Below are positions 2,240 through 11,697 of a stretch of 36,324 nucleotides of DNA, piece by piece (positions within the stretch are counted from its first letter, which is position 1; each line of letters begins with the position of its first letter). The notes under the pieces were generated by a model. It saw only the letters and a program-made list of their open reading frames with translations. It did not search any database and had not been told where the DNA came from. The DNA comes from an uncultured Lachnospiraceae bacterium (GTDB lineage: Bacteria; Bacillota; Clostridia; Lachnospirales; Lachnospiraceae), in the NCBI GenBank assembly GCA_947564735.1, contig CANOEC010000039.1:1-36324 (forward strand), given 5' to 3'. The position numbers and the translations under genes are program-made.

Positions 2240-3934
2240 CTATGAAACTTTCGCCTTTTTCTTTGCGGTCGGCTTTGCTGTGCTTTCCTCCTGCCCGGTC
2301 GGTTCGGATAAATCAATCTGCCCGACAAAGTTAAAATAGATGTCAACTTTCTGCTTTCTGTTCCGTCTGCCCCCGCTTTTGTCCGCTTCATGTACGACAA
2401 TCTTTTCGATAAACTCGTTGAGCATTGGTGTTGTGATTTCCCCACAACCCTGATATTTCCTCACAACCTCCATGAATTTATCGGTGCGGACTGTGTTTTT
2501 CTCATACTCTGTAAGAGAGTTTTTGATTTCCTCAATCCTGTTTTCCAGTGCGCCCTGCTCGCTGTCATACTCCGCTAACATTCTCTCAAAGTGCTTGTCG
2601 GGAATTTTTCCCGTTGCGTTGCCCTCATAAAGTTTTCTTATAAGTCCGTCCAGTTCCTTTACACGCCTTTCTGCGGTAGAGAGTTCCTTTTTGTTTTCTT
2701 TTATGGCGGTTTCCAGTTGGAAGTCTGAAAGCACCTCCAAACGTCTGATAAATTCCCCCTCGTTCTCTATGGCAAAACTGCTGACAGTATGGATTGCCTT
2801 TTTTATCAGTTCCTCAACCACTGACACCTTGATATAGTGCATGGTGCAATCTCGGTGCAGACTGCGGTAACTGCCGCATACAAAGGAATTGTCGCTGTCA
2901 TAGGTCTTTCCGTCGGGGCGGTGTGCTGCGTTTGGGCTTCGGTAGGTCAGTTTCGCTCCGCAATCGGCACAATAGAGCAAGCCTGTCAGACGGTTCTTGT
3001 ATGTTCCGTTCTTGACTTCCCTGCGGACAGTCCTCTTTAGCCTTTGTACGTTGTTCCATGTTTCCTCGTCAATGATTGCGTCATGGGTATTCTTGAATAT
3101 CATCAGTTCTTCGGGTTTTGCTTTCCTGCGCTTTTTGGTCTTGAAATTGTCCGTCACTGTCTTGCCTAAAACGGTATGCCCCATGTACTCCTGCTTTTCA
3201 AGGATATAGCCTATGGCGGTGCAAGACCACCCATAGGGATTCGTCCAACCGTGGCTGTGGTCGTTTTCTGGACAATGCTCCGCTGCATAGGCGGCAGGAA
3301 TGAGTATCTTGTCCTCTGTCAGCGCCCTTGCTATGTCACGTTTCCCATGCCCCTCAATCGTCATCTGATATATCCGTCTGACAACTTTTGCAGGTTCTTC
3401 ATCAATGATTAGGCGCTGTTTGTCCTGTGGGTCACGCAGGTATCCGTAGGGAACGCTTGGGGAAACTCTTTTCCCCTCCTGCATTTTCGCCTTGAACATG
3501 GTGCGGATTTTCTTGGAAGTGTCCTTTGCGTACCACTCATTCATGATGTTAAGGAATGGGGTAAAATCGTTCTCGCCCTGCGTTTCGCTGTCAACTCCGT
3601 TGTTAATGGCGATAAACCGCACGCCCTTTTCGGGGAACAGCATCTCTGTGTAAAAGCCAACTTTCAGATAGTTGCGCCCGAATCTGCTCATATCCTTAAC
3701 GATTACCGTATCGACATTTCCTGCCTCAACCTCGGCAATCATTTTTTGGAAACCCTCACGCTCGAATGTGATGCCGCTTACTCCGTCGTCTGTAAAGTGT
3801 CGGATATTTCGGAAACCGTTCTTTCTTGCGAAGTCCTCAAGGTATTCTTTTTGGTTCTTGATGCTGTTGCTCTCGCCCTGCATTTCATCATCTCGTGAGA
3901 GCCTTTCATAAAGTGCTGTGATTTTGATTGACAT
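2240..3934 (-). CDS. Large serine recombinase (TnpX/TndX-type) with zinc ribbon and DUF4368
   Basis: This 564-residue site-specific recombinase would excise and insert the inner element by a serine-linked double-strand exchange. The resolvase domain occupies about residues 4-150, with the catalytic serine at residue 13 in ALYERLSRDDE and conserved arginines in DMSRFGRNY. A recombinase domain follows at about 170-290 (VPYGYLRDPQ onward). A zinc ribbon comes next, with CADCG near residue 320 and further cysteines in FVCGSYRSLHRDC. After it are a coiled coil and a DUF4368-like C-terminus ending in a basic tail. The start has AAAGGAG 9 bases upstream. The length and domain order match Tn4451 TnpX and Tn5397 TndX relatives that move conjugative or mobilizable elements. 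It lies at the very end of its element, directly against the broken virD4 gene, as expected for the recombinase of the element that made the insertion. Confidence 0.95.
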   Translation of the reverse strand: MSIKITALYERLSRDDEMQGESNSIKNQKEYLEDFARKNGFRNIRHFTDDGVSGITFEREGFQKMIAEVEAGNVDTVIVKDMSRFGRNYLKVGFYTEMLFPEKGVRFIAINNGVDSETQGENDFTPFLNIMNEWYAKDTSKKIRTMFKAKMQEGKRVSPSVPYGYLRDPQDKQRLIIDEEPAKVVRRIYQMTIEGHGKRDIARALTEDKILIPAAYAAEHCPENDHSHGWTNPYGWSCTAIGYILEKQEYMGHTVLGKTVTDNFKTKKRRKAKPEELMIFKNTHDAIIDEETWNNVQRLKRTVRREVKNGTYKNRLTGLLYCADCGAKLTYRSPNAAHRPDGKTYDSDNSFVCGSYRSLHRDCTMHYIKVSVVEELIKKAIHTVSSFAIENEGEFIRRLEVLSDFQLETAIKENKKELSTAERRVKELDGLIRKLYEGNATGKIPDKHFERMLAEYDSEQGALENRIEEIKNSLTEYEKNTVRTDKFMEVVRKYQGCGEITTPMLNEFIEKIVVHEADKSGGRRNRKQKVDIYFNFVGQIDLSEPTGQEESTAKPTAKKKAKVS

Positions 3935-4003
3935 AGAGATTTGCTCCTTTCCCCGAAAACGCCCTGTTTATCAGCTTTTTCAGTGTTTTTATTTTCTCTG
4001 TCC

Positions 4004-4609
4004 TTAACAGACTAACCCATTCGGGTCAGTGACAACGTATGATGAGTGCATCTGCATCAGGTTCGGTTTTACAAAAAACCTCGTCTTGCCTGAACCAGAG
4101 CCGCCGATCACAAGGATATTTTTATTCCTCGCATACTTCGGCTGTTTCGGCCTGCCTGACATCATCAGACGCTCCGTCTGCGTTAAGAGGATATTGTTCT
4201 CAAACACGGAATCCATGTAAGGCTCTATATCCTTTGCGTTGCCCCACCTTGCGGAACCGTACTCCATGCCATGCCGGAACTTTTTGGCATTCTTGGCTTT
4301 GAAATACACGATGAAATAAAGCGCAATTCCACAGCCTGCGCCAATCAGCAGATCTTTCGGGTGCAGGCTTGGGAGCGGGTTTTTAAATAAGTCATTCAGC
4401 CCCTCCAAAACCGCCATCATCTTTGCGGAAGCGTCCTGCCCTGGCGATACCCGCCACAGACATGCCACTTTATCACAAAAATATCCGGCAAGGAAATAGG
4501 GAAGGTTCATCAGGACAAATTTCTTTTTGTCAATGTTCCCGGTCTTTGCCTTGAGGTTCTTCGGGATGGCTTTCAGGTCTTTGGCTATGCCATTGATGAT
4601 ATTGCTCAT
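4004..4609 (-). pseudogene. virD4: VirD4/TraG-type coupling protein, truncated by element insertion
   Basis: The frame keeps the N-terminal 198 residues of a VirD4/TraG conjugation coupling ATPase, an inner-membrane protein that hands DNA to the type IV channel. Visible features are two hydrophobic segments (about 33-50 and 87-102), the GSARWG segment, and a Walker A motif GGSGSGKT at about 169-176. The conserved YVVTDPNG strand follows. The protein then ends with three unrelated residues and a stop. Full proteins are about 600 residues, so the Walker B and all-alpha domains are missing. The break falls at about 4013-4018, where the recombinase-bearing element begins. It overlaps the pcfB-like gene by 4 bases, the usual pairing in these elements. 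The product should be non-functional unless the inner element excises. Confidence 0.85.
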
Positions 4610-5082
4610 AGGCTCTGCCCCCTGTCCTTGTTCTTCTCCCGGCTTCTCTCCCGGTTCTTATCCTGCGATACTGCGTCCTTGAAATGCTTCAGTTTCTCCC
4701 TTAAAGAAACCCTGCCTTTCTTTTTCTCGTTACCATAAACAAATTCCTTGAATGCCTGCGTCACCGCATCGGCATCCCTGCCCTTGAAAAAGACCAGATA
4801 CTTGGGCGGTTCGGTTGTCTTGTCTTTCTTAATGGCAAAATCAACATTGTACTTTTTCGCCACACGCTCAAAAGACCTGATATTGCCATCAGTGACTTCT
4901 ATCGACGATACCCCCACGCCATCGCCAACGAGCTTTTTTACAGAAGTTTTCCCATGCGTTCTCTGTGCTTTCTGCTTCTGGTGGTTTAAGTACATCCTCA
5001 TTGCAGCTTTCAGCACGTTGGCATCTAATTTTGCGGTCTTAATCACAAGGGCAATCGTTTTCTGTGTTACTTCCTCCTGCAT
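4606..5082 (-). CDS. PcfB-like (DUF3801) conjugation protein
   Basis: I start this 158-residue protein at MQEEVTQKTIALVIK because AAGGAGGTG lies just upstream; the frame is open further but without a ribosome site. It begins with a helical segment (ALVIKTAKLDANVLKAAMRM). The middle domain contains RSFERVAKKYNVDFAIKK and YLVFFKGRDADAVTQAFKEF. The last 35 residues are very basic (REKLKHFKDAVSQDKNRERS). This matches PcfB/DUF3801 proteins, relaxosome accessory factors that sit directly before the coupling protein gene and help recruit DNA to it. The 4-base overlap with virD4 supports that role. Confidence 0.8.
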   Translation of the reverse strand: MQEEVTQKTIALVIKTAKLDANVLKAAMRMYLNHQKQKAQRTHGKTSVKKLVGDGVGVSSIEVTDGNIRSFERVAKKYNVDFAIKKDKTTEPPKYLVFFKGRDADAVTQAFKEFVYGNEKKKGRVSLREKLKHFKDAVSQDKNRERSREKNKDRGQSL

Positions 5083-5121
5083 TAAGCACCTCCTTGTTAC
5101 GTTCCTGCATCTGTCCATGCA

Positions 5122-5194: not shown

Positions 5195-5219
5195 ACTTCT
5201 GGACATCATGTCCAGAAGT
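5195..5219. repeat. 25-bp intercistronic palindrome, copy 1
   Basis: The half site ACTTCTGGACAT is repeated perfectly inverted around a single central base. On the minus strand the palindrome begins within the stop codon of the 5219-5650 gene. It is followed within a few bases by GGAAGGAG. Copies 2 and 3 lie at 5664-5688 and 6999-7023 in the same relation to genes. Confidence 0.85.
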
Positions 5220-5650
5220 TAATATAACAGGCAATCTGTCCTGATATAGTCCTCATATTCCTTTAATTCCATATCTGTATCAGCTCCATAAGATAAACTG
5301 ATACCAGTAAACCCACACAACCCATCAGCGGTTAGGAAATCTTTATAGAGCCTGCCAAAATCAGCGGCAAACTTCTCTATGATACGCTCATGGCTGTCTT
5401 TATAGCAGTACTGATAATAAATTTTCTTTCCGCTGCTTCCCCCACACATATCCGAGAATGAATAATTTATTTCCGCTGACTGTTTTACTGAAATCTGTAT
5501 GCAACTGCCCTGCCTCCTTAACTGAAAACAAGCGACACTTTTCCTTGTTGAAACCGTAATGTTTGGATTCACCCCCGCTTTTCCACAGGCTCCCGCTATT
5601 TTCCCTAATAATGCAGCCACCGCTTTATTCTGAAATTCTCTTCTTTCCAT
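5219..5650 (-). CDS. Unrecognised mobile-element protein
   Basis: A 143-residue protein started at MERREFQNKAVAALLGKI, where AAAGGAG lies 4 bases upstream. A second in-frame ATG at 5665 lies inside the palindrome copy 2 and lacks a ribosome site. The N-terminus is a basic amphipathic helix. The middle has alternating polar/hydrophobic strands (ITVSTRKSVACFQLRRQGSC), and a tyrosine-rich IYYQYCYKDSHERIIEKF helix follows. The C-terminus is acidic (MELKEYEDYIRTDCLLY). There is no signal peptide or membrane helix. Several cysteines are scattered rather than paired, so there is no clear metal site. It is flanked on both sides by copies of the 25-bp palindrome. Function unknown. Confidence 0.6.
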   Translation of the reverse strand: MERREFQNKAVAALLGKIAGACGKAGVNPNITVSTRKSVACFQLRRQGSCIQISVKQSAEINYSFSDMCGGSSGKKIYYQYCYKDSHERIIEKFAADFGRLYKDFLTADGLCGFTGISLSYGADTDMELKEYEDYIRTDCLLY

Positions 5651-5663
5651 TTTGCTCCTTTCC

Positions 5664-5688
5664 ACTTCTGGACATCATGTCCAGAGGT
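5664..5688. repeat. 25-bp intercistronic palindrome, copy 2
   Basis: Same sequence as copy 1 except one base in the outer arm (a G-T pair in RNA). It begins within the stop codon of the 5688-6422 gene and runs into the AAAGGAG ribosome site of the 5219-5650 gene. A hairpin in the mRNA would therefore lie exactly between stop and start. Confidence 0.85.
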
Positions 5689-6422
5689 TATCGCTCTTCA
5701 TTTAAACAATAAATTGTGTGGAGATTGGCACACAACTGATTTCCCCCATACTCCACATCATCAAGCAATAATGCCTGAAAAAGCACATCCCCCACTCCGT
5801 CAAGCAGCATGATCTTCTGCTCCTGCTCTGGAAGGTGTCTGTACTCCGCCCCGTCCATAACAGCGGATTTTCTTGCAGCTTCACAACAGGTAAACAGACC
5901 GAGGATATATCTGTTTGACATGATAAAGGCATATGTTTCCTTTCCGTCACAAATCATCCGGTATTTTTCTGCTTCTCCCTCCGGAAGCGTAAAGAGGCAC
6001 TGCACCGTTTCCAGACAAAGCCCGCTGTCATAATCCGGCTGTAACCGCTTTTTGTACTTCTGCACCCTTGCATAGATCCCCTCCCGTTCTAAAACGGAAT
6101 GGGTACGCTTAAACTGCGGCTTTCTGCAGAGCATATCCAAGTCCATATACACGTTGTTGATTATGGTCTTTTCTGCATACTGCCGGAAAGATTTCAGCCT
6201 TAACAGATAGGCAAGCACTTCATCCAGCTTTTCCTCTGATGTGATGGTCTGGAAAGGCTCGCCGCCAAACTCCAGCCTGTCAAACATGATCGGGCAGCTC
6301 CCCTTTTTTACTTCACGCTCCATTGCCCTTTTAACATCCCGTAACGATTCCACACTTATCTCCTTCCTGCTCCACTGACTGGAAGCAATAAAAAAAGGGC
6401 GGCTACAAATCTGCTGATCCAT
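5688..6422 (-). CDS. Unrecognised mobile-element protein (start uncertain)
   Basis: I prefer the ATG at 6422, giving 244 residues beginning MDQQICSRPFFIASSQWS, because GAGG lies 6 bases upstream. The frame is open to a GTG at 6563, which would add 47 residues but has no ribosome site. The protein is soluble-looking and mixed alpha/beta. It has a charged helix (RDVKRAMEREVKKG), a leucine-rich stretch (EVLAYLLRLKSFRQYAEKTI), a basic RVQKYKKRLQP segment and an acidic C-terminus (VLFQALLLDDVEYGG). I see no ATPase, nuclease or DNA-binding signature. It belongs with the 6573-6941 gene in a block bounded by two palindrome copies, between the replication and transfer genes. Confidence 0.55.
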   Translation of the reverse strand: MDQQICSRPFFIASSQWSRKEISVESLRDVKRAMEREVKKGSCPIMFDRLEFGGEPFQTITSEEKLDEVLAYLLRLKSFRQYAEKTIINNVYMDLDMLCRKPQFKRTHSVLEREGIYARVQKYKKRLQPDYDSGLCLETVQCLFTLPEGEAEKYRMICDGKETYAFIMSNRYILGLFTCCEAARKSAVMDGAEYRHLPEQEQKIMLLDGVGDVLFQALLLDDVEYGGNQLCANLHTIYCLNEER

Positions 6423-6441
6423 AACCGCCCTCACGCTGTTC

Positions 6442-6576
6442 TCAACCTGAAATTTTTTTAACACAGAGGTCTTCCACCTCCGTACCTCTGGAAACCTTGC
6501 CGGAAGTGTGATTGAAAAGATAATCACACTTCCAACAAGGTTTGAAAGTGCCACCCGCCACACTTTGGCAGCTCAT
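6442..6576 (-). CDS. Possible 44-residue peptide overlapping the 6573 stop
   Basis: An ATG at 6576 overlaps the stop of the preceding gene in the ATGA arrangement. It opens 44 codons in a different frame, starting MSCQSVAGGTFKPCWKCDYL and ending 19 bases before the preferred start of the next gene. The CWKC pair could bind metal. If real, it fills the gap left when the next gene starts at 6422. The alternative is an N-terminal extension of that gene in its own frame. No family recognised. Confidence 0.25.
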   Translation of the reverse strand: MSCQSVAGGTFKPCWKCDYLFNHTSGKVSRGTEVEDLCVKKISG

Positions 6577-6941
6577 ACTGTTCCGATTCCCGCCAGTCCT
6601 GCGAAATGCTGTTTCCTGCCCATAAGCTCTTTCTGCTTTTCTTCCGGCAGACGCATGAAAATATCATCATAATCAATGTCACCGGTATTCATTTCCCTTG
6701 CGGCCATGATAAGCTGTGTATGCAGCCATTCCTCCCACAAGTCCTCAAACAGTTCCCTGCTGTCCGTAAAAGTAAAATCATTCTCAAAGCCTGTCGGTGG
6801 TGTATAGTATTGCAGCTTTACAAAGCCATACCTGCCAACATCAACTACCACAATGTCCACATCTTCAAGCTCCACAAAGGCATCCGCCACCTTCCGGCAT
6901 TTTTCTCGTTCTTCCTCCGTAATATATGTTTTCTTCGCCAT
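6573..6941 (-). CDS. Small acidic mobile-element protein, function unknown
   Basis: This 122-residue protein starts at MAKKTYITEEEREKC, with GGAGG 5 bases upstream; an ATG four codons earlier overlaps that ribosome site. It begins with a charged helix. A beta-rich centre follows (VDIVVVDVGRYGFVKLQYYT), then an acidic helix (DSRELFEDLWEEWLHTQLIM), and it ends glycine-rich. It carries many more acidic than basic residues. Acidic small proteins in mobile elements can be DNA mimics or anti-defence factors, but nothing here proves that. It is the first gene after the promoter at 6971-6999. Confidence 0.6.
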   Translation of the reverse strand: MAKKTYITEEEREKCRKVADAFVELEDVDIVVVDVGRYGFVKLQYYTPPTGFENDFTFTDSRELFEDLWEEWLHTQLIMAAREMNTGDIDYDDIFMRLPEEKQKELMGRKQHFAGLAGIGTV

Positions 6942-6970
6942 GTATGCCTCCATTCCCTGTCCATAGCAGT

Positions 6971-6999
6971 ATCATACACTCCATCTGAAAAAATTTCCA
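6971..6999 (-). promoter_or_regulatory. Promoter beside palindrome copy 3
   Basis: On the minus strand TGGAAA (6999-6994) and TATGAT (6976-6971) are 17 bases apart, matching 4 and 5 of 6 consensus positions. The palindrome ends at the first base of the -35 box. The promoter would drive the 6573-6941 gene and those after it, with the palindrome well placed as an operator or activator site. Confidence 0.5.
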
Positions 7000-7023
7000 C
7001 CTCTGGACATTGTGTCCAGAAGT
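6999..7023. repeat. 25-bp intercistronic palindrome, copy 3
   Basis: The half site TCTGGACA is kept in inverted form; this copy differs from copy 1 at a few outer and central bases. It starts 3 bases after the stop codon of the replication gene. It is followed on the minus strand by a run of six T, so it could also weakly terminate the rep transcript. Confidence 0.8.
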
Positions 7024-7026
7024 TTA

Positions 7027-8112
7027 TTATGTGATTCCTTTTTCTGCCCACCCGCCGCCATACATATCATGCTGCACTTCCTGCTGGTAGTAATGGCTCA
7101 TGGTTGAGGGGGCATTATAAAGGGCAGTAATCAGATATGCCCGGATATTGGTGATCTTTGATGTAGTGTCTTTCATGCAGTCCATGACATACGCCACATG
7201 GCTGCTGTTTATTTTCAAAAAACGGGATTTTACAAGCTCATAAGGGTAATCTTCCCCATTGATGCGGATTGCCCTGCGCTTTACACAGACCACATCGCAG
7301 ATTGTTTCGTAGATTTCCTCATACATTTCCTTATCCCCATATTGGGCATATTTCATGTGATGCTCGTATTCCAGATTTTTACGGATCAATGCCATATATG
7401 CGGTTGATTCATCCATCACATCAATCGTATCGGCTTTTTCCTGCAACCTAAAGTTATCCACACCTCCCACAGATTGATTGATAGGATTGGGATAACTCAT
7501 ATCAGTATGATTCTGTTTAGTCTGGTTATAGTTAGTATAATTAGGGTCTGATTCGCCGACTTCTTGAAGTTCGTTTTCCCGACCTCTTGAAGTCAGTTTT
7601 TCCGACCTGCTGAAATCGGTTTTTCCGACCTCTTGAAGTCGGTTTTCCTGACTTCCTGAAGTCGGCTTTTCCGACCTCTTGAAGTCGGTTTTTCCGACTT
7701 CTGTGGAAATATCAGCTTTTGAAGGGTCTTTCCTGCCCTCATCCTGTATAACAAAATTCTTCACATAAATGATATCTGGTTTTCCAAGCCCCCGGCGGAT
7801 TTTCTCGATCAATCCTATTCCTTTGCTTGCATCCAGTTCTGCAAGAACCTTTACTGCCTTTTCCTTGCTACAGCCCAAATCTTCCCGGATATTTTCTATT
7901 GTGTAAATGATATATGCCCGGTTTTCATCGTCCAGCCACCCGTTTTTCATGGACATTGACATCCTGTCAAGCATCAACCCATACAGGAGCTTAGCATCGC
8001 TGCTAAGCCCCTTGAAACGCTCGTCCTTGATCAGCAGGCGGGGAACACGGTAAAAAGAAAACTGCTCTGCTTCAATGCCATAGTAATAGTCAAATTTCAA
8101 TGGCTCGCCCAT
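7027..8112 (-). CDS. repA: RepA_N / DUF6017 replication initiator
   Basis: A 361-residue protein started at MGEPLKFDYYYGIEAEQFSF, with GGAGG 8 bases upstream; an open stretch before it lacks a ribosome site. Residues about 7-100 are the RepA_N winged-helix domain (FYRVPRLLIKDERF, then LSSDAKLLYGLMLDRM), which binds origin repeats. The hinge (about 140-186) is low-complexity and is encoded by a tandem 23-bp DNA repeat. The C-terminal domain (about 235-361) carries the DUF6017 pattern, including VKRRAIRINGEDYPYELVKS, ITNIRAYLITALYNAP and HDMYGGGW. RepA_N plasmids commonly have their origin inside the rep gene, which the repeat array supports. With parA and parB upstream, it suggests the outer element can replicate while excised. 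Confidence 0.9.
   Translation of the reverse strand: MGEPLKFDYYYGIEAEQFSFYRVPRLLIKDERFKGLSSDAKLLYGLMLDRMSMSMKNGWLDDENRAYIIYTIENIREDLGCSKEKAVKVLAELDASKGIGLIEKIRRGLGKPDIIYVKNFVIQDEGRKDPSKADISTEVGKTDFKRSEKPTSGSQENRLQEVGKTDFSRSEKLTSRGRENELQEVGESDPNYTNYNQTKQNHTDMSYPNPINQSVGGVDNFRLQEKADTIDVMDESTAYMALIRKNLEYEHHMKYAQYGDKEMYEEIYETICDVVCVKRRAIRINGEDYPYELVKSRFLKINSSHVAYVMDCMKDTTSKITNIRAYLITALYNAPSTMSHYYQQEVQHDMYGGGWAEKGIT
7556..7706. repeat. Tandem 23-bp iteron array inside rep (candidate replication origin)
   Basis: Six units begin at 7556, 7579, 7602, 7625, 7648 and 7671, with a partial seventh at 7694. Each carries a near-palindrome close to CCGACYTCTTGAAGTCGG followed by a T-run. The period of 23 bases is not a multiple of three, so the encoded residues repeat only every 23 codons (EVGKTDF ... 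EVGKTDF ... EVGESD). That points to selection on the DNA rather than on the protein. The location in the hinge-coding part of a RepA_N gene fits an origin. Confidence 0.85.
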
Positions 8113-8125
8113 TTTACCGCCTCCT

Positions 8126-9001
8126 TCACTGTTTCCTCTTCCATTCCTCCAAAAGCTCAACAATGACACCTTCTATGTCGTCATTGGAATATTCCTCTGG
8201 AAAATATCTGCTGATCTTATCGCCCTTGATTGTCACTTTTCTTTCCTTCGGCTTTTCCTCTGTCAGTATCAGCCTGACCATTGCAAGGGTAAGCTCACCG
8301 CTTTTCCCATATTCCTTCAGCTTTGCCGCCTGTGCATTGGAGACCGATGCCCCTGTTTCCTGGAGAATGACCGTCACAAACTGCTGCTGTTCTTCTGACA
8401 AAAAGGAAATATCCACTCCCTGTGCTATCCCTATCTTTTTCTTATCCACCATGTCAAGCAGTTCGTCAGAAAGCCTTGCAAGCCATACATACCTCTGCAC
8501 CGTCTTTCCGCTCTCCCCTGCGGCTTCCCCCACTTCGTCGAGGGTACTGCCGCCTTTGCTGCCTTGATGCTTCATCGCTTCATATTTCATGGAATAAGCC
8601 CTTGCTTTTTCGCTCGGCAGAATGTCCTCCCGCTGGATATTGGAATCCACCATGATGATTGTGGCTTCATCGTCCGTATAATTCCTGACAATGACGGGCA
8701 TTGTATCAAGCCCTGCCCGCTCAGAGCCACGTTTCCTCCGGTGTCCGGCTATGATCTCATAACCGCCGCCCTCCCTCGGCCTTGCAAGCCCCGGCACAAG
8801 CACACCATATTTACTGATGCTCTCCGTGGTTTCCTCCATCTTTTCATCATCAAGGACACGGAAAGGGTGTCCTTTGAATGTATATAAGTCAGACAGCTTC
8901 GCATTGATGATCTGCTCCCCTGCCGTATTTTCCGCACCACCAAATAAATCGTCAAAACTGTTCAGCCTGACTTTCGATGCGCTCCCTGCCTTACTGCCCA
9001 T
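8126..9001 (-). CDS. parB: ParB/Spo0J-family partition protein
   Basis: A 291-residue protein started at ATG 9001, 9 bases after GGAGG, overlapping the parA stop by 11 bases. After a variable N-terminus comes the ParB nuclease-like CTP-binding domain, with LSDLYTFKGHPFRVLDDEKM and the signature GHRRKRGSERAG near residues 90-102. Next is the helix-turn-helix region (SGKTVQRYVWLARLSDELLD, about 165-185) that reads parS. A C-terminal segment for dimerization ends EEWKRKQ. It would load on centromere sites and recruit ParA to keep the element in both daughter cells while it is circular. Chromosomal Spo0J is usually paired with a soj of its own near oriC; the neighbours here make it the element's copy. 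Confidence 0.92.
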   Translation of the reverse strand: MGSKAGSASKVRLNSFDDLFGGAENTAGEQIINAKLSDLYTFKGHPFRVLDDEKMEETTESISKYGVLVPGLARPREGGGYEIIAGHRRKRGSERAGLDTMPVIVRNYTDDEATIIMVDSNIQREDILPSEKARAYSMKYEAMKHQGSKGGSTLDEVGEAAGESGKTVQRYVWLARLSDELLDMVDKKKIGIAQGVDISFLSEEQQQFVTVILQETGASVSNAQAAKLKEYGKSGELTLAMVRLILTEEKPKERKVTIKGDKISRYFPEEYSNDDIEGVIVELLEEWKRKQ

Positions 9002-9776
9002 TGCCAAGCACCTCCTCCGTCAAAGACTGGTATGCGCCTGCAACCCTGCCTTTCGGGTCATGCTGGTAGATGCTGACACCTTCTGCGGAAGTTTCCGCAG
9101 CCCTTACCGACATCGGTATGCTGTTCTCAAATATCCGTACCTTACTGCCGTATGTGTCGATAAGAAGCGCCGTAATATCCCTCGCATAATTGGTACGGTT
9201 ATCCACCATTGTCAGCAGTATGCCCTCAATCTCCAATCTCTGGTTGATCTGCCGCTTCACCTTTCCTATGGTCTTGATAAGCTGTTCCAGACCTTTTACG
9301 GGCAGATATGCCGCCTGTACTGGTATCAGTATGCTGTTGGCACAGGCAAAGGCATTTATGGTTATCATACCGAGAGAAGGCATACAGTCAATCAGGATAT
9401 AATCGTACTGCCCTTTTACCATCTCCACATAGGAGCGCATCATGATCTCCCGGCTCATCACGTTCACAAGAGAAACTTCCAGACCGGACAGCTCAATGTT
9501 CCCCGGCATCAGGTCAATGCCTTCGTCATGCTTTAAGATGCCGTAGCCCGGTTCCATTTCTTCATCATTGATAACCTTTTCCATTACATTCGCAAGGGTG
9601 ACCTCCAGCTTATCCGGCTCCGTGAAGCCCAGGCTTGCGGTCAGGCTTCCCTGTGCGTCTGCGTCAATCAGTAAAACTCTTTTTCCCTGCTTTGCCAGCC
9701 CGATTCCTAAGTTGCTCGTTGTGGTGGTCTTGCCCACCCCGCCTTTCTGGTTTGCGATTGCTATAATCTTACACAT
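8991..9776 (-). CDS. parA: ParA/Soj-family partition ATPase
   Basis: This 261-residue ATPase opens MCKIIAIANQKGGVGKTTTT, with the deviant Walker A motif (residues 11-18, signature lysine in KGGVGKT). It then shows LLIDADAQGSLT and the Walker B-like YDYILIDCMPSLGM. There is no N-terminal helix-turn-helix, so it is the short (type Ib/Soj) form that depends on ParB. It forms ATP-dependent dimers on the nucleoid and moves ParB-bound DNA. It is directly upstream of and overlaps parB, and is followed by the rep gene: a parA-parB-rep block typical of clostridial conjugative elements related to Tn1549. Start ATG at 9776 with GGAGG upstream. Confidence 0.93.
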   Translation of the reverse strand: MCKIIAIANQKGGVGKTTTTSNLGIGLAKQGKRVLLIDADAQGSLTASLGFTEPDKLEVTLANVMEKVINDEEMEPGYGILKHDEGIDLMPGNIELSGLEVSLVNVMSREIMMRSYVEMVKGQYDYILIDCMPSLGMITINAFACANSILIPVQAAYLPVKGLEQLIKTIGKVKRQINQRLEIEGILLTMVDNRTNYARDITALLIDTYGSKVRIFENSIPMSVRAAETSAEGVSIYQHDPKGRVAGAYQSLTEEVLGNGQ

Positions 9777-9976: not shown

Positions 9977-10460
9977 GTTTCCTCTCCATTTCTGCAAGGA
10001 TTTCTTCAATGGGCTTCGGTTTCTGGCAATACTCCGGATACCGGAGCTGAATGCCCTGCCAGAAGTACATCGCATAGCCACAGCAGAAAATATCGCTTAC
10101 GGAATACTCCCTGCACTCCCTGATCTGCTCGTCCTTGCGCTTATAATCGTCAACACTCGGTGTTCCGTCCGTATAAAGGTTAAAGGCAAGCCGTACCACC
10201 CGGACACTGCCGCTTGTCTGCCAGCCCTGATGCAAACACTCTGTTTTGATGTACCCGGACTGGATGTCGTAAATCTGGCTGAAGTGATTCCTTGTGTCCT
10301 CTGAAATACCGAGAATGTAGATCAATGCCTTGTGGTAGCAGTCCTGATACCTTGCCTGTTCCAATTTTTCATAGTAGAATTTCTCGTGTTCCTCATTGTA
10401 AAAAACCATGTGTGTGTTGTTGGCGCTCTGCGCCTCTGCTCTTACCGCTGTGCTGTTCAT
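9942..10460 (-). CDS. DUF6075-family protein
   Basis: A 172-residue protein starting at ATG 10460 behind AGGAGGG. The recognisable pattern is FYNEEHEKFYYEKLEQARYQ, then DCYHKALIYILGISEDTRNH, CLHQGWQTSGSVRVVRLAFN and an SDIFCCGYAMYFWQGI segment. This matches the DUF6075 family seen repeatedly in Firmicutes mobile elements near parA and rep genes. It has conserved cysteine and histidine residues but no proven activity. It is the first gene of the element transcribed away from the tsf boundary. An array of TTGAGTA sites lies 70-135 bases upstream and may control it. Confidence 0.75.
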   Translation of the reverse strand: MNSTAVRAEAQSANNTHMVFYNEEHEKFYYEKLEQARYQDCYHKALIYILGISEDTRNHFSQIYDIQSGYIKTECLHQGWQTSGSVRVVRLAFNLYTDGTPSVDDYKRKDEQIRECREYSVSDIFCCGYAMYFWQGIQLRYPEYCQKPKPIEEILAEMERKRAENSTDGNEE

Positions 10461-10527
10461 TATATACCCTCCTGGTTATTATTTTTTATATAAAGGATTG
10501 AGATAGGGTTTTAAGGAACTGCTATAA

Positions 10528-10594
10528 TTGAGTAAACTTCGCCGAAGATTGTGAATACTCATTTTACTCAACATCGCCCTTGAGTAATACTCAA
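10528..10594. repeat. Array of TTGAGTA half sites upstream of the DUF6075-parA genes
   Basis: TTGAGTA occurs at 10528-10534 and 10580-10586, and its complement TACTCAA at 10565-10571 and 10588-10594; a near match TACTCAT lies at 10556-10562. The last pair forms a perfect 15-base palindrome around one base (10580-10594). An 11-base palindrome CTTCGCCGAAG sits at 10537-10547. This could be an operator for the parA operon or a parS-like centromere. Confidence 0.6.
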
Positions 10595-10608
10595 CTTGAA
10601 GTGATTTT

Positions 10609-10635
10609 AGACGGTTTCAGACGGTAAAAGACGGT
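10609..10635. repeat. Three AGACGGT repeats at exact 10-base spacing
   Basis: AGACGGT begins at 10609, 10619 and 10629, so all three copies face the same side of the helix. Such short phased repeats near an element end are typical of arm-binding sites for a tyrosine integrase. No integrase gene for the outer element is in the window, so this is inference. Confidence 0.5.
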
Positions 10636-10661
10636 ATTTCTGTTTTTCCTTTTTCGCATGC

Positions 10662-10735
10662 AAAAAAGGCTCTGAAATCCTCATAATCACTTAGAAATGC
10701 GTGATTACAAGGCTTTCAGAGCCTCATATTTTTTT
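10662..10735. terminator. Nested bidirectional terminator after tsf
   Basis: AGGCTCTGAAA (10667-10677) pairs perfectly with TTTCAGAGCCT (10714-10724). Inside it TAATCAC (10684-10690) pairs with GTGATTA (10701-10707). On the minus strand the stem is followed by six T, ending tsf transcription. On the plus strand seven T follow after a short gap. It insulates the ribosomal operon from the adjacent element. Confidence 0.75.
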
Positions 10736-10761
10736 ACGTTGTCTTGTTATGCAAACTTCGC

Positions 10762-11697
10762 TTACATGCCCATCTGCTTTGCAACCTCTTCCGCAAAGTT
10801 CTCTTCTTTCTTCTCAAGGCCTTCACCAGTCTCGTAACGAACAAACTTCTTAACGGAAAGATTTGCATTGTTCTCTTTTGCAACCTGCTCAAGATACTTT
10901 GCTACGGTCTGCTTGCCGTCCTCTGCCTTTACATATACCTGCTCTAACAGACATACTTCCTTCAGCTCTTTGTTCAGACGTCCGTTTACCGCACCCTCAA
11001 TGACCTTCTCAGGCTTGCCAGCCATCTTAGGATCATTTTTAATCTGCTCCGTGAGAATCTCCTTCTCATGAGCCTTGTACTCTTCGGATACTTCATCCGT
11101 AGATACATACTTAGGATATAACGCCGCTACCTGCATCGCAATATTGGTCAGCGCTTCCTTGACCGCATCATTGACCACGTCCGTAGCCGCCTCAACAATA
11201 ACGCCGATTCTGCCGCCGCCATGCACATAAGATACTGCACAGCCATCGTTTGCAACAACTTTCTCAAATCTTCTGATGGTAAGGTTCTCACCGATTACCG
11301 CAATCTTGTCAACCAGCGCGTCTTTTACTGTCTTAGAAGAATCCAAATGCCAGCTTTCTGCAAGGAAAGCATCCATATCCGACGCATCAGAATCAACCGC
11401 CTGCTTAGCAACAGCCTCAACATATGCTTGGAAATCAGCGTTTTTAGCGACAAAATCCGTCTCGGAATTTACTTCTACGACTGCAACCGTTTTATCATCT
11501 TTCACTGCTACACGACAAAGTCCTTCTGCCGCAATTCTGCCTGCTTTCTTCTCTGCCTTAGCCTGTCCGTTCTTTCTCAAATACTCAACCGCCGCATCCA
11601 TATCACCGTCGGTTTCACCGAGTGCCTTCTTACAGTCCATCATGCCTGCACCAGTCATTTCTCTCAACTCTTTTACCATTGCTGCTGTAATAGCCAT
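10762..11697 (-). CDS. tsf: Elongation factor Ts
   Basis: The 311-residue protein is the guanine nucleotide exchange factor for EF-Tu. The N-terminal UBA-like domain reads MAITAAMVKELREMTGAGMM, DCKKALGETDGDMDAAVEYL and RKNGQAKAEKKAGRIAAEG. It contains the TDFVAKN motif (about residue 80) that contacts the EF-Tu G domain. Two exchange subdomains follow, and the C-terminal helix ends EEVAKQMGM. The length is normal for Firmicutes. The start has TAGGAGG upstream and lies 17 bases past rpsB, so the two form the usual operon. It is the last core gene before the mobile-element end. Its coding sequence is intact, so insertion did not damage it. Confidence 0.98.
   Translation of the reverse strand: MAITAAMVKELREMTGAGMMDCKKALGETDGDMDAAVEYLRKNGQAKAEKKAGRIAAEGLCRVAVKDDKTVAVVEVNSETDFVAKNADFQAYVEAVAKQAVDSDASDMDAFLAESWHLDSSKTVKDALVDKIAVIGENLTIRRFEKVVANDGCAVSYVHGGGRIGVIVEAATDVVNDAVKEALTNIAMQVAALYPKYVSTDEVSEEYKAHEKEILTEQIKNDPKMAGKPEKVIEGAVNGRLNKELKEVCLLEQVYVKAEDGKQTVAKYLEQVAKENNANLSVKKFVRYETGEGLEKKEENFAEEVAKQMGM

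Follow-up and report, generated by a model that had tools for sequence, protein, structure and literature searches.

KorB of plasmid RK2, a DNA-binding protein of the ParB fold, has many operators on a single mobile element. Noc, which acts in nucleoid occlusion, has chromosome-wide sites and is not known to have a ParA partner. Chromosomal parS, as far as it is described, has a length of 16 bp. Within the ParB/Noc family, the available text of Jalal 2020 (PMC7383237) has a recognition-helix residue deciding a base of the site, with Caulobacter R173 a known specificity residue. A parS inside its own reader's gene has a precedent in PMC12207404, where the accessible text holds the phrase "within the parB gene". 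SGI1, which uses the IncC parABS, is a mobile element relying on a partition system encoded elsewhere, according to the accessible part of PMC10954446.

Here we describe a repeated 25-bp palindrome in a 36,324-nucleotide stretch of DNA from an uncultured Lachnospiraceae bacterium, hereafter the window. We read it as the parS (centromere) of a ParABS system on a conjugative element, and put the probability of this reading at roughly 0.87. So read, the palindrome makes a new parS type within a system of known kind, and is unusual in lying in gene junctions and in in-frame linkers. The features concerned are as follows.

4606-5118, minus strand: DUF3801 gene (7.1e-41), downstream of copy 1
5195-5219, no strand assigned: palindrome copy 1, predicted parS, flanked by the stop of the 148-aa ORF and by the ribosome site preceding the DUF3801 gene
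5219-5665, minus strand: 148-aa ORF, function unassigned, flanked by copies 1 and 2
5664-5688, no strand assigned: palindrome copy 2, predicted parS, with the 291-aa ORF stopping on one side of it and the 148-aa ORF's ribosome site on the other
5688-6563, minus strand: 291-aa ORF (o291), no family above cut-off
6573-6953, minus strand: 126-aa ORF, no family, absent from some relatives
6999-7023, no strand assigned: palindrome copy 3, predicted parS, 3 bases past the repA stop
7027-8169, minus strand: repA, replication initiator (RepA_N, DUF6017)
8126-9007, minus strand: parB, predicted palindrome reader (ParB_N; HTH_ParB just below cut-off)
8480-8509, minus strand: predicted recognition-helix codons, ParB residues 167-176, with residue 168 (Lys) at 8504-8506 (coordinates worked out by hand from the ORF start)
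8991-9776, minus strand: parA, partition ATPase (AAA_31, 5.9e-56)

The three copies are genuine: ACTTCTGGACATCATGTCCAGAAGT (copy 1), ACTTCTGGACATCATGTCCAGAGGT (copy 2) and ACCTCTGGACATTGTGTCCAGAAGT (copy 3). The genes around them lie on the minus strand. The last base of a TAA stop is the first base of copies 1 and 2 (ORFs ending at 5219 and 5688), and copy 3 starts 3 bases past the repA stop TAA at 7027-7029. The ribosome sites GGAAGGAG and GGAAAGGAG come directly after copies 1 and 2, respectively, whereas none abuts copy 3. RNA folding gave -16.5, -12.3 and -16.2 kcal/mol for copies 1, 2 and 3, and a search of the window against Rfam matched no family at gathering scores. An earlier reading of this DNA from its letters alone (the sequence-only reading) had claimed three palindromes beginning at or within 3 bases of a TAA, two of them running into a ribosome site, and a hairpin in the mRNA. 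Coordinates, stops and computed folds all agree with it, copies 1 and 2 being the pair with ribosome sites.

The gene neighbourhood is that of a partition module. The window order is DUF6075-parA-parB-repA, palindrome cluster, DUF3801-traG, so that the cluster lies just downstream of parA-parB-repA, and several related loci keep this order. The ATPase encoded by parA is of the ParA type by its AAA_31 match, and its gene overlaps parB; among 98 site-bearing loci, 19 had no ParA match at 1e-6 within the stretch fetched. The window ParB has a ParB N domain (ParB_N, 1.2e-17) and an HTH_ParB match of 22.3 bits against a cut-off of 22.6. Its best PDB match is Spo0J (1.7e-21), KorB also matches at 3.8e-4, and its predicted model (mean pLDDT 74) has ParB, Noc and KorB as top Foldseek matches, with low whole-chain TM scores. 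From its gene content we call the element Tn1549-like.

Other features of the element and its host lie beside this module. Inside repA, at 7547-7707, are six 23-bp direct repeats with GACYTC..GAAGTC; these are likely iterons or an origin, which RepA_N plasmids have within the initiator gene. At 2240-4609 a shortened traG (201 aa) is followed by a large serine recombinase gene, and the same order in locus L105 suggests a repeated insertion site. About 300 bp separate the end of the DUF6075 gene (10460-10762), typical of such elements, from tsf and rpsB, and the element may end near here; a strong inverted repeat lies at 10667-10724. The host genome also encodes a second ParB, 96% identical and cut by the contig end (G000, contig 95:3-611), so two close relatives of the element seem to be co-resident.

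The palindrome recurs far more often than chance allows. With at most one mismatch in its 17-base core it has 10 copies in the host genome, three on the window contig, five on contig 36 and two on contig 53 (3 of 102 contigs), against 0 for a reversed-pattern control. Over the window and the first 40 loci of relatives (569 kb), 48 motif sites score at least 16 against a shuffle mean of 0.0, and 64 score at least 15 against 0.35. Because both kinds of control are near zero, the recurrence is not chance. A scan of GTDB genomes with 20 specified bases returned at least 115 stretches, mostly from gut Clostridia; among the 80 matches listed, most titles name Lachnospiraceae, Clostridiaceae or other Clostridia, six read only "Bacterium D16-.." and one names Sulfoacidibacillus. 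Allowing at most one mismatch, 14 of the 397 genomes sampled from the family carry it. Plasmid and phage records contain ParB relatives, at most 75% identical among the matches listed. Matches to the 17-mer in 19 IMG/VR stretches were judged to be chance, 14 falling below 18 of 20 core matches and 5 lacking the outer C...G. The sequence-only reading had staked its case on recurrence in related elements and on non-random position relative to genes. Both are seen: the palindrome recurs there, and its placement is non-random with respect to genes or domains.

Around ParB genes the palindrome has a common form with a changeable pentamer. We collected 80 ParB loci from the family and then 40 more from the class, 38 of these from other families. 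Their common architecture is an odd 25-bp palindrome, ACTT-N5-CA-N3-TG-N5'-AAGT, in which the pentamer varies: CTGGA in the window, and CTGGT, GTGGT, TGCGA, CCCGA, CGTCC, CTGTT and others elsewhere, amounting to 43 different left-arm pentamers among 92 ParBs. On a second scale, 133 sites score at least 19 across 121 ParB loci, against 0 and 1 in two first-order shuffles. At least one site occurs in 86 of the 121 loci, and the other 35, some on short contigs, have none at this threshold.

These sites often lie within parB itself. Among the 98 loci for which a site was chosen, 50 carry one within parB, its offset divisible by 3 in every case. In 48 of the 50 it falls at +342 to +471, which places it in the linker that joins the N-terminal domain to the HTH, where such sites encode forms such as LTSSQVGTKL. 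The exact window palindrome recurs beside quite distant ParBs: inside parB of 45% identity in L143, and at +848, just after parB, in L067, whose ParB is about 50% identical and has SGKTVQRY. A near-identical palindrome in the same frame lies in a 26% identical ParB gene of Sulfoacidibacillus (L078:6705); this locus was left out of the counts by hand. In L226, three copies of a shorter palindrome relative, AATGGACACAGTGTCCATT, lie about 50-570 bases before a 42% identical ParB gene.

The pentamer covaries with a single residue of ParB. Wherever residue 168 is Lys or Arg, pentamer base 4 is G in both arms (37 of 37 combinations), and where it is another residue, base 4 is not G in 12 of 13, an overall agreement of 49 in 50 distinct helix/site combinations (from 95 loci, 72 of them with a chosen site). 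The exception, L102, has an in-gene site of another type (score 18), about 4 kb from the CTGGA site that entered the count. We first spotted the link by eye, then fixed the rule and the rule for choosing sites before an out-of-sample test on 40 new loci, 26 of them with a site. All 24 distinct combinations obeyed the rule, 6 with Lys or Arg and G, 18 with other residues and without it. Fisher values for this association ignore kinship; on a tree of 92 ParBs built with the helix left out, there are about 10 switches of residue class and about 11 of base 4, with L102 the sole disagreement. By mutual-information z score, residue 134 ranks highest with base 4 and residue 168 second. In the predicted helix 167-176 residue 168 comes second, and window residue 167 aligns with Caulobacter R173, making 168 its neighbour (a mapping from alignments and the paper's numbering). 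The link from ParB residue 168 to pentamer base 4 is a readable, if putative, one-residue code.

Many copies lie deep within genes. The sequence-only reading had stressed exact placement at gene junctions, but the palindrome is not confined there: 93 of 167 copies with correct outer bases sit in stop-free frames of at least 300 codons. In 92 of the 93 the reading frame is the same, giving TSGHDVQK (73), TSGHNVQK (12), TSGHHVQK (4) or one of three single variants. The exception, in L032, begins 4 codons past a stop codon and is possibly intergenic. A stop interrupts one of the three possible frames and a second is hydrophobic; the copies use the third, a hydrophilic one, and this may explain the bias. 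Several of the large ORFs encode polyvalent proteins with ArdC-N, YodL, DUF3849, LPD16, nucleotidyltransferase or restriction/SNF2-type domains, and others have M23 and NlpC/P60 domains. The order in L103 is YodL at 676-786, a site at 809, DUF3849 at 831-954, a site at 972 and LPD16 from 1045. In the domain test, which took 13 out of 67 ORFs, several of them mutually homologous, none of 24 sites in 13 proteins overlaps a Pfam domain where 5.7 were expected (P 0.0011 assuming independence, which homologous ORFs do not have). These copies show a DNA site preserved in frame within protein linkers.

Gene content between and behind the copies differs among relatives, as a check proposed in the sequence-only reading had asked. 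We compared what follows the o291 stop and palindrome in 18 loci of the window's own type. The 148-aa ORF and another palindrome follow in the window, L050 and L059; the two form a unit, present or absent together. The DUF3801 leader follows directly in L052, L056, L087, L091, L105, L111, L119, L145 and L155, and probably in L051, which is cut off. Another gene follows in L063 and L101, a short gene and another palindrome in L098, and a longer gap before DUF3801 in L152. Polyvalent-type sequence follows in L109, a junction that may be an assembly chimera. A palindrome above threshold lies behind repA in 11 of 15 repA-bearing loci. Within large ORFs, a module of about 80 aa around YKMEANPRS lies between two sites in L124. 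In L133 it belongs to a different ORF and comes behind one site, and in L072 no site leads it. Such changes of genes and domains fit recombination at the sites or mere shared tolerance of linkers, which look alike in these sequences.

It is very improbable that the palindrome acts as a hairpin in operon mRNA, placed at gene junctions as a signal for processing, stability or translation control. All three window copies fold and two adjoin a ribosome site; 11 distinct intergenic variants lean to G-U (7 G-U, 3 mismatches, 1 compensated). Of 92 coding copies, 75 have G as their central base on the sense strand. But 17 coding variants lean the opposite way (2 G-U, 12 mismatches), and over 81 distinct sites the arm mismatches on the parB strand are 29 G-U, 25 A-C and 23 others. 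With G-U and A-C so evenly matched there is no strand preference, and selection for an RNA hairpin is not supported; this symmetry and the many copies in long frames tell against both the RNase processing site and the RNA-protein control site that the sequence-only reading had offered. Those copies, and a ParB residue that predicts pentamer letters, weigh against any hairpin role. An operator for another protein of the element, above all RepA, would have the ParB correlation arise through par-rep linkage, and is highly unlikely. The ACTTC/GAAGT of the repA repeats does resemble the outer arms of the palindrome. In a Mantel test on 48 combinations with ParA and RepA matches, dereplicated to 35, distances correlate with the pentamer at r 0.58 for the helix, 0.64 for the rest of the HTH, 0.58 for the ParB C-terminal part, 0.48 for ParA, 0.41 for the ParB N-terminal part and 0.38 for RepA, so that on raw values the helix does not stand out from the other parts of ParB. 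Given RepA distance, however, the recognition segment keeps a partial r of 0.49, whereas RepA falls to 0.11 given the helix. The ParB C-terminal part (0.33) and ParA (0.31) retain more, which shows whole-module linkage still visible. Sites lie within parB in 50 of the 98 site-bearing loci, one helix residue predicts one base, and 20 of the 98 loci have no RepA match in the stretch fetched, a soft figure as some stretches are short.

Least probable of the rivals is that the palindrome is chiefly a recombination seam or a mobile palindrome that clusters near parB by happenstance. Xer/pdif cassettes have modules between sites that XerC/XerD recombine, and REP/RPE repeats are dispersed over chromosomes with a dedicated transposase. 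The varying genes behind the o291 palindrome and the YKMEANPRS module of L124 and L133 speak for this rival, gene content changing at the sites. But the L072 module has no leading site, no recombinase is linked to the sites, and host copies are held to 3 of 102 contigs, not spread; both the link to ParB residue 168 and the recurrence in parB linkers would go unexplained. The cassette seam proposed in the sequence-only reading thus survives in part, in that the next gene after the o291 palindrome differs and a module follows the palindrome in two ORFs. A more serious competitor, though still unlikely, has ParB bind mainly to regulate transcription of the element, as KorB does. Sites directly upstream of the ribosome sites of operon genes favour it, as does KorB itself, a ParB-fold relative by its PDB match and among the Foldseek matches. 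Against it, parA overlaps parB and a replication gene then follows, as in partition modules, and sites deep within long frames would make poor promoter operators. Regulation and partition can coexist.

The parS reading accounts best for the whole. Of the four options in the sequence-only reading, a DNA operator used three times comes nearest, since the palindrome is a DNA site, its predicted reader being the element's own ParB. Architecture, recurrence, non-random placement and covariation with ParB are plain in the DNA; palindromic sites near parAB match the cognate ParB by sequence covariation only. We infer from this ParB binding, clamp loading and partition. A ParB dimer would read both half sites, ACTT-CTGGA-CA, through its recognition helix, then load as a CTP clamp and slide onto neighbouring DNA, and ParA would move or anchor the excised, RepA-replicated element at cell division. 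Several parS sites would be distributed over the element, and in packed operons a 25-bp site could be kept at low cost in the gap from stop to ribosome site or in an in-frame hydrophilic linker.

Some loci run counter to this scheme, among them the 35 that lack a site at the threshold. L054, L089 and L102 carry a CTGGA site near a ParB whose in-gene site differs; each of these genomes also encodes a further ParB, of 75-93% identity, which could serve the site in trans. A CTGGA site occurs in G057 as well, yet the only close ParB there (44%) has Ser as residue 168 and an in-gene site of another kind. No ParB match was found at 1e-20 in 4 of the 14 palindrome-positive family genomes; at 1e-6, G372 (85% complete) had none and G217, G297 and G392 had weak ones only. 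ParB at 1e-20 in 10 of these 14 against 194 of 397 overall is a weak per-genome linkage, which in our reading arises because ParB specificities differ.

We tentatively suggest that parS doubles as a seam, though we think this less likely than not to be so: recombination would swap domains or genes with frames and ribosome sites intact, while ParB specificity diversifies so that many co-resident elements are compatible. Swapping would be frame-safe because the same 25-bp site, in the same frame, lies both in the linkers of polyvalent proteins that are unrelated to each other and in the gaps between genes of the operon. Among 11 pairs of co-resident elements none shares a pentamer, against a background rate of 10%, which is merely consistent with partition incompatibility driving site change. 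The genomes of L054, L089, L102 and L116 have 10-15 ParB matches each at 1e-6, pieces and chromosomal-type ParBs included, and are hosts to many co-resident elements.

A large family of gut conjugative elements thereby gains a predicted centromere with a simple letter code. Fragments of such elements that are left unassembled can be recognised by the palindrome, its variants offer many candidate orthogonal ParB-parS pairs for DNA labelling, and the question whether partition incompatibility drives site change becomes testable. Among the literature matches listed, in which subscription journals are thinly covered, no paper concerns the parS of such elements.

Set beside known systems, the locus departs from Noc in having a ParA and in confining its host copies to a few contigs. 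With KorB of RK2 it has the ParB fold in common, while sequence and site differ. It resembles chromosomal ParB-parS (Spo0J/ParB) in having ParA beside ParB, a ParB N domain with an HTH and several palindromic sites per replicon; unlike chromosomal parS as described, its site has an odd length of 25 bp and a pentamer that changes fast, and frequently lies in frame in the linker of ParB or in those of other proteins. An SGI1-like use of a foreign partition system is a possible reading for L054, L089 and L102 only. Polyvalent proteins of Tn1549-like elements have YodL, LPD, zincin and other domains (PMC5512222, available text, where neither "palindrom" nor "linker" occurs), and the ORFs with in-frame copies share domains with them. 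In the ParB/Noc switch, as given in the available text of PMC7383237, a helix residue likewise decides a base of the site; here the telling residue is 168, and 43 left-arm pentamers stand against two sites.
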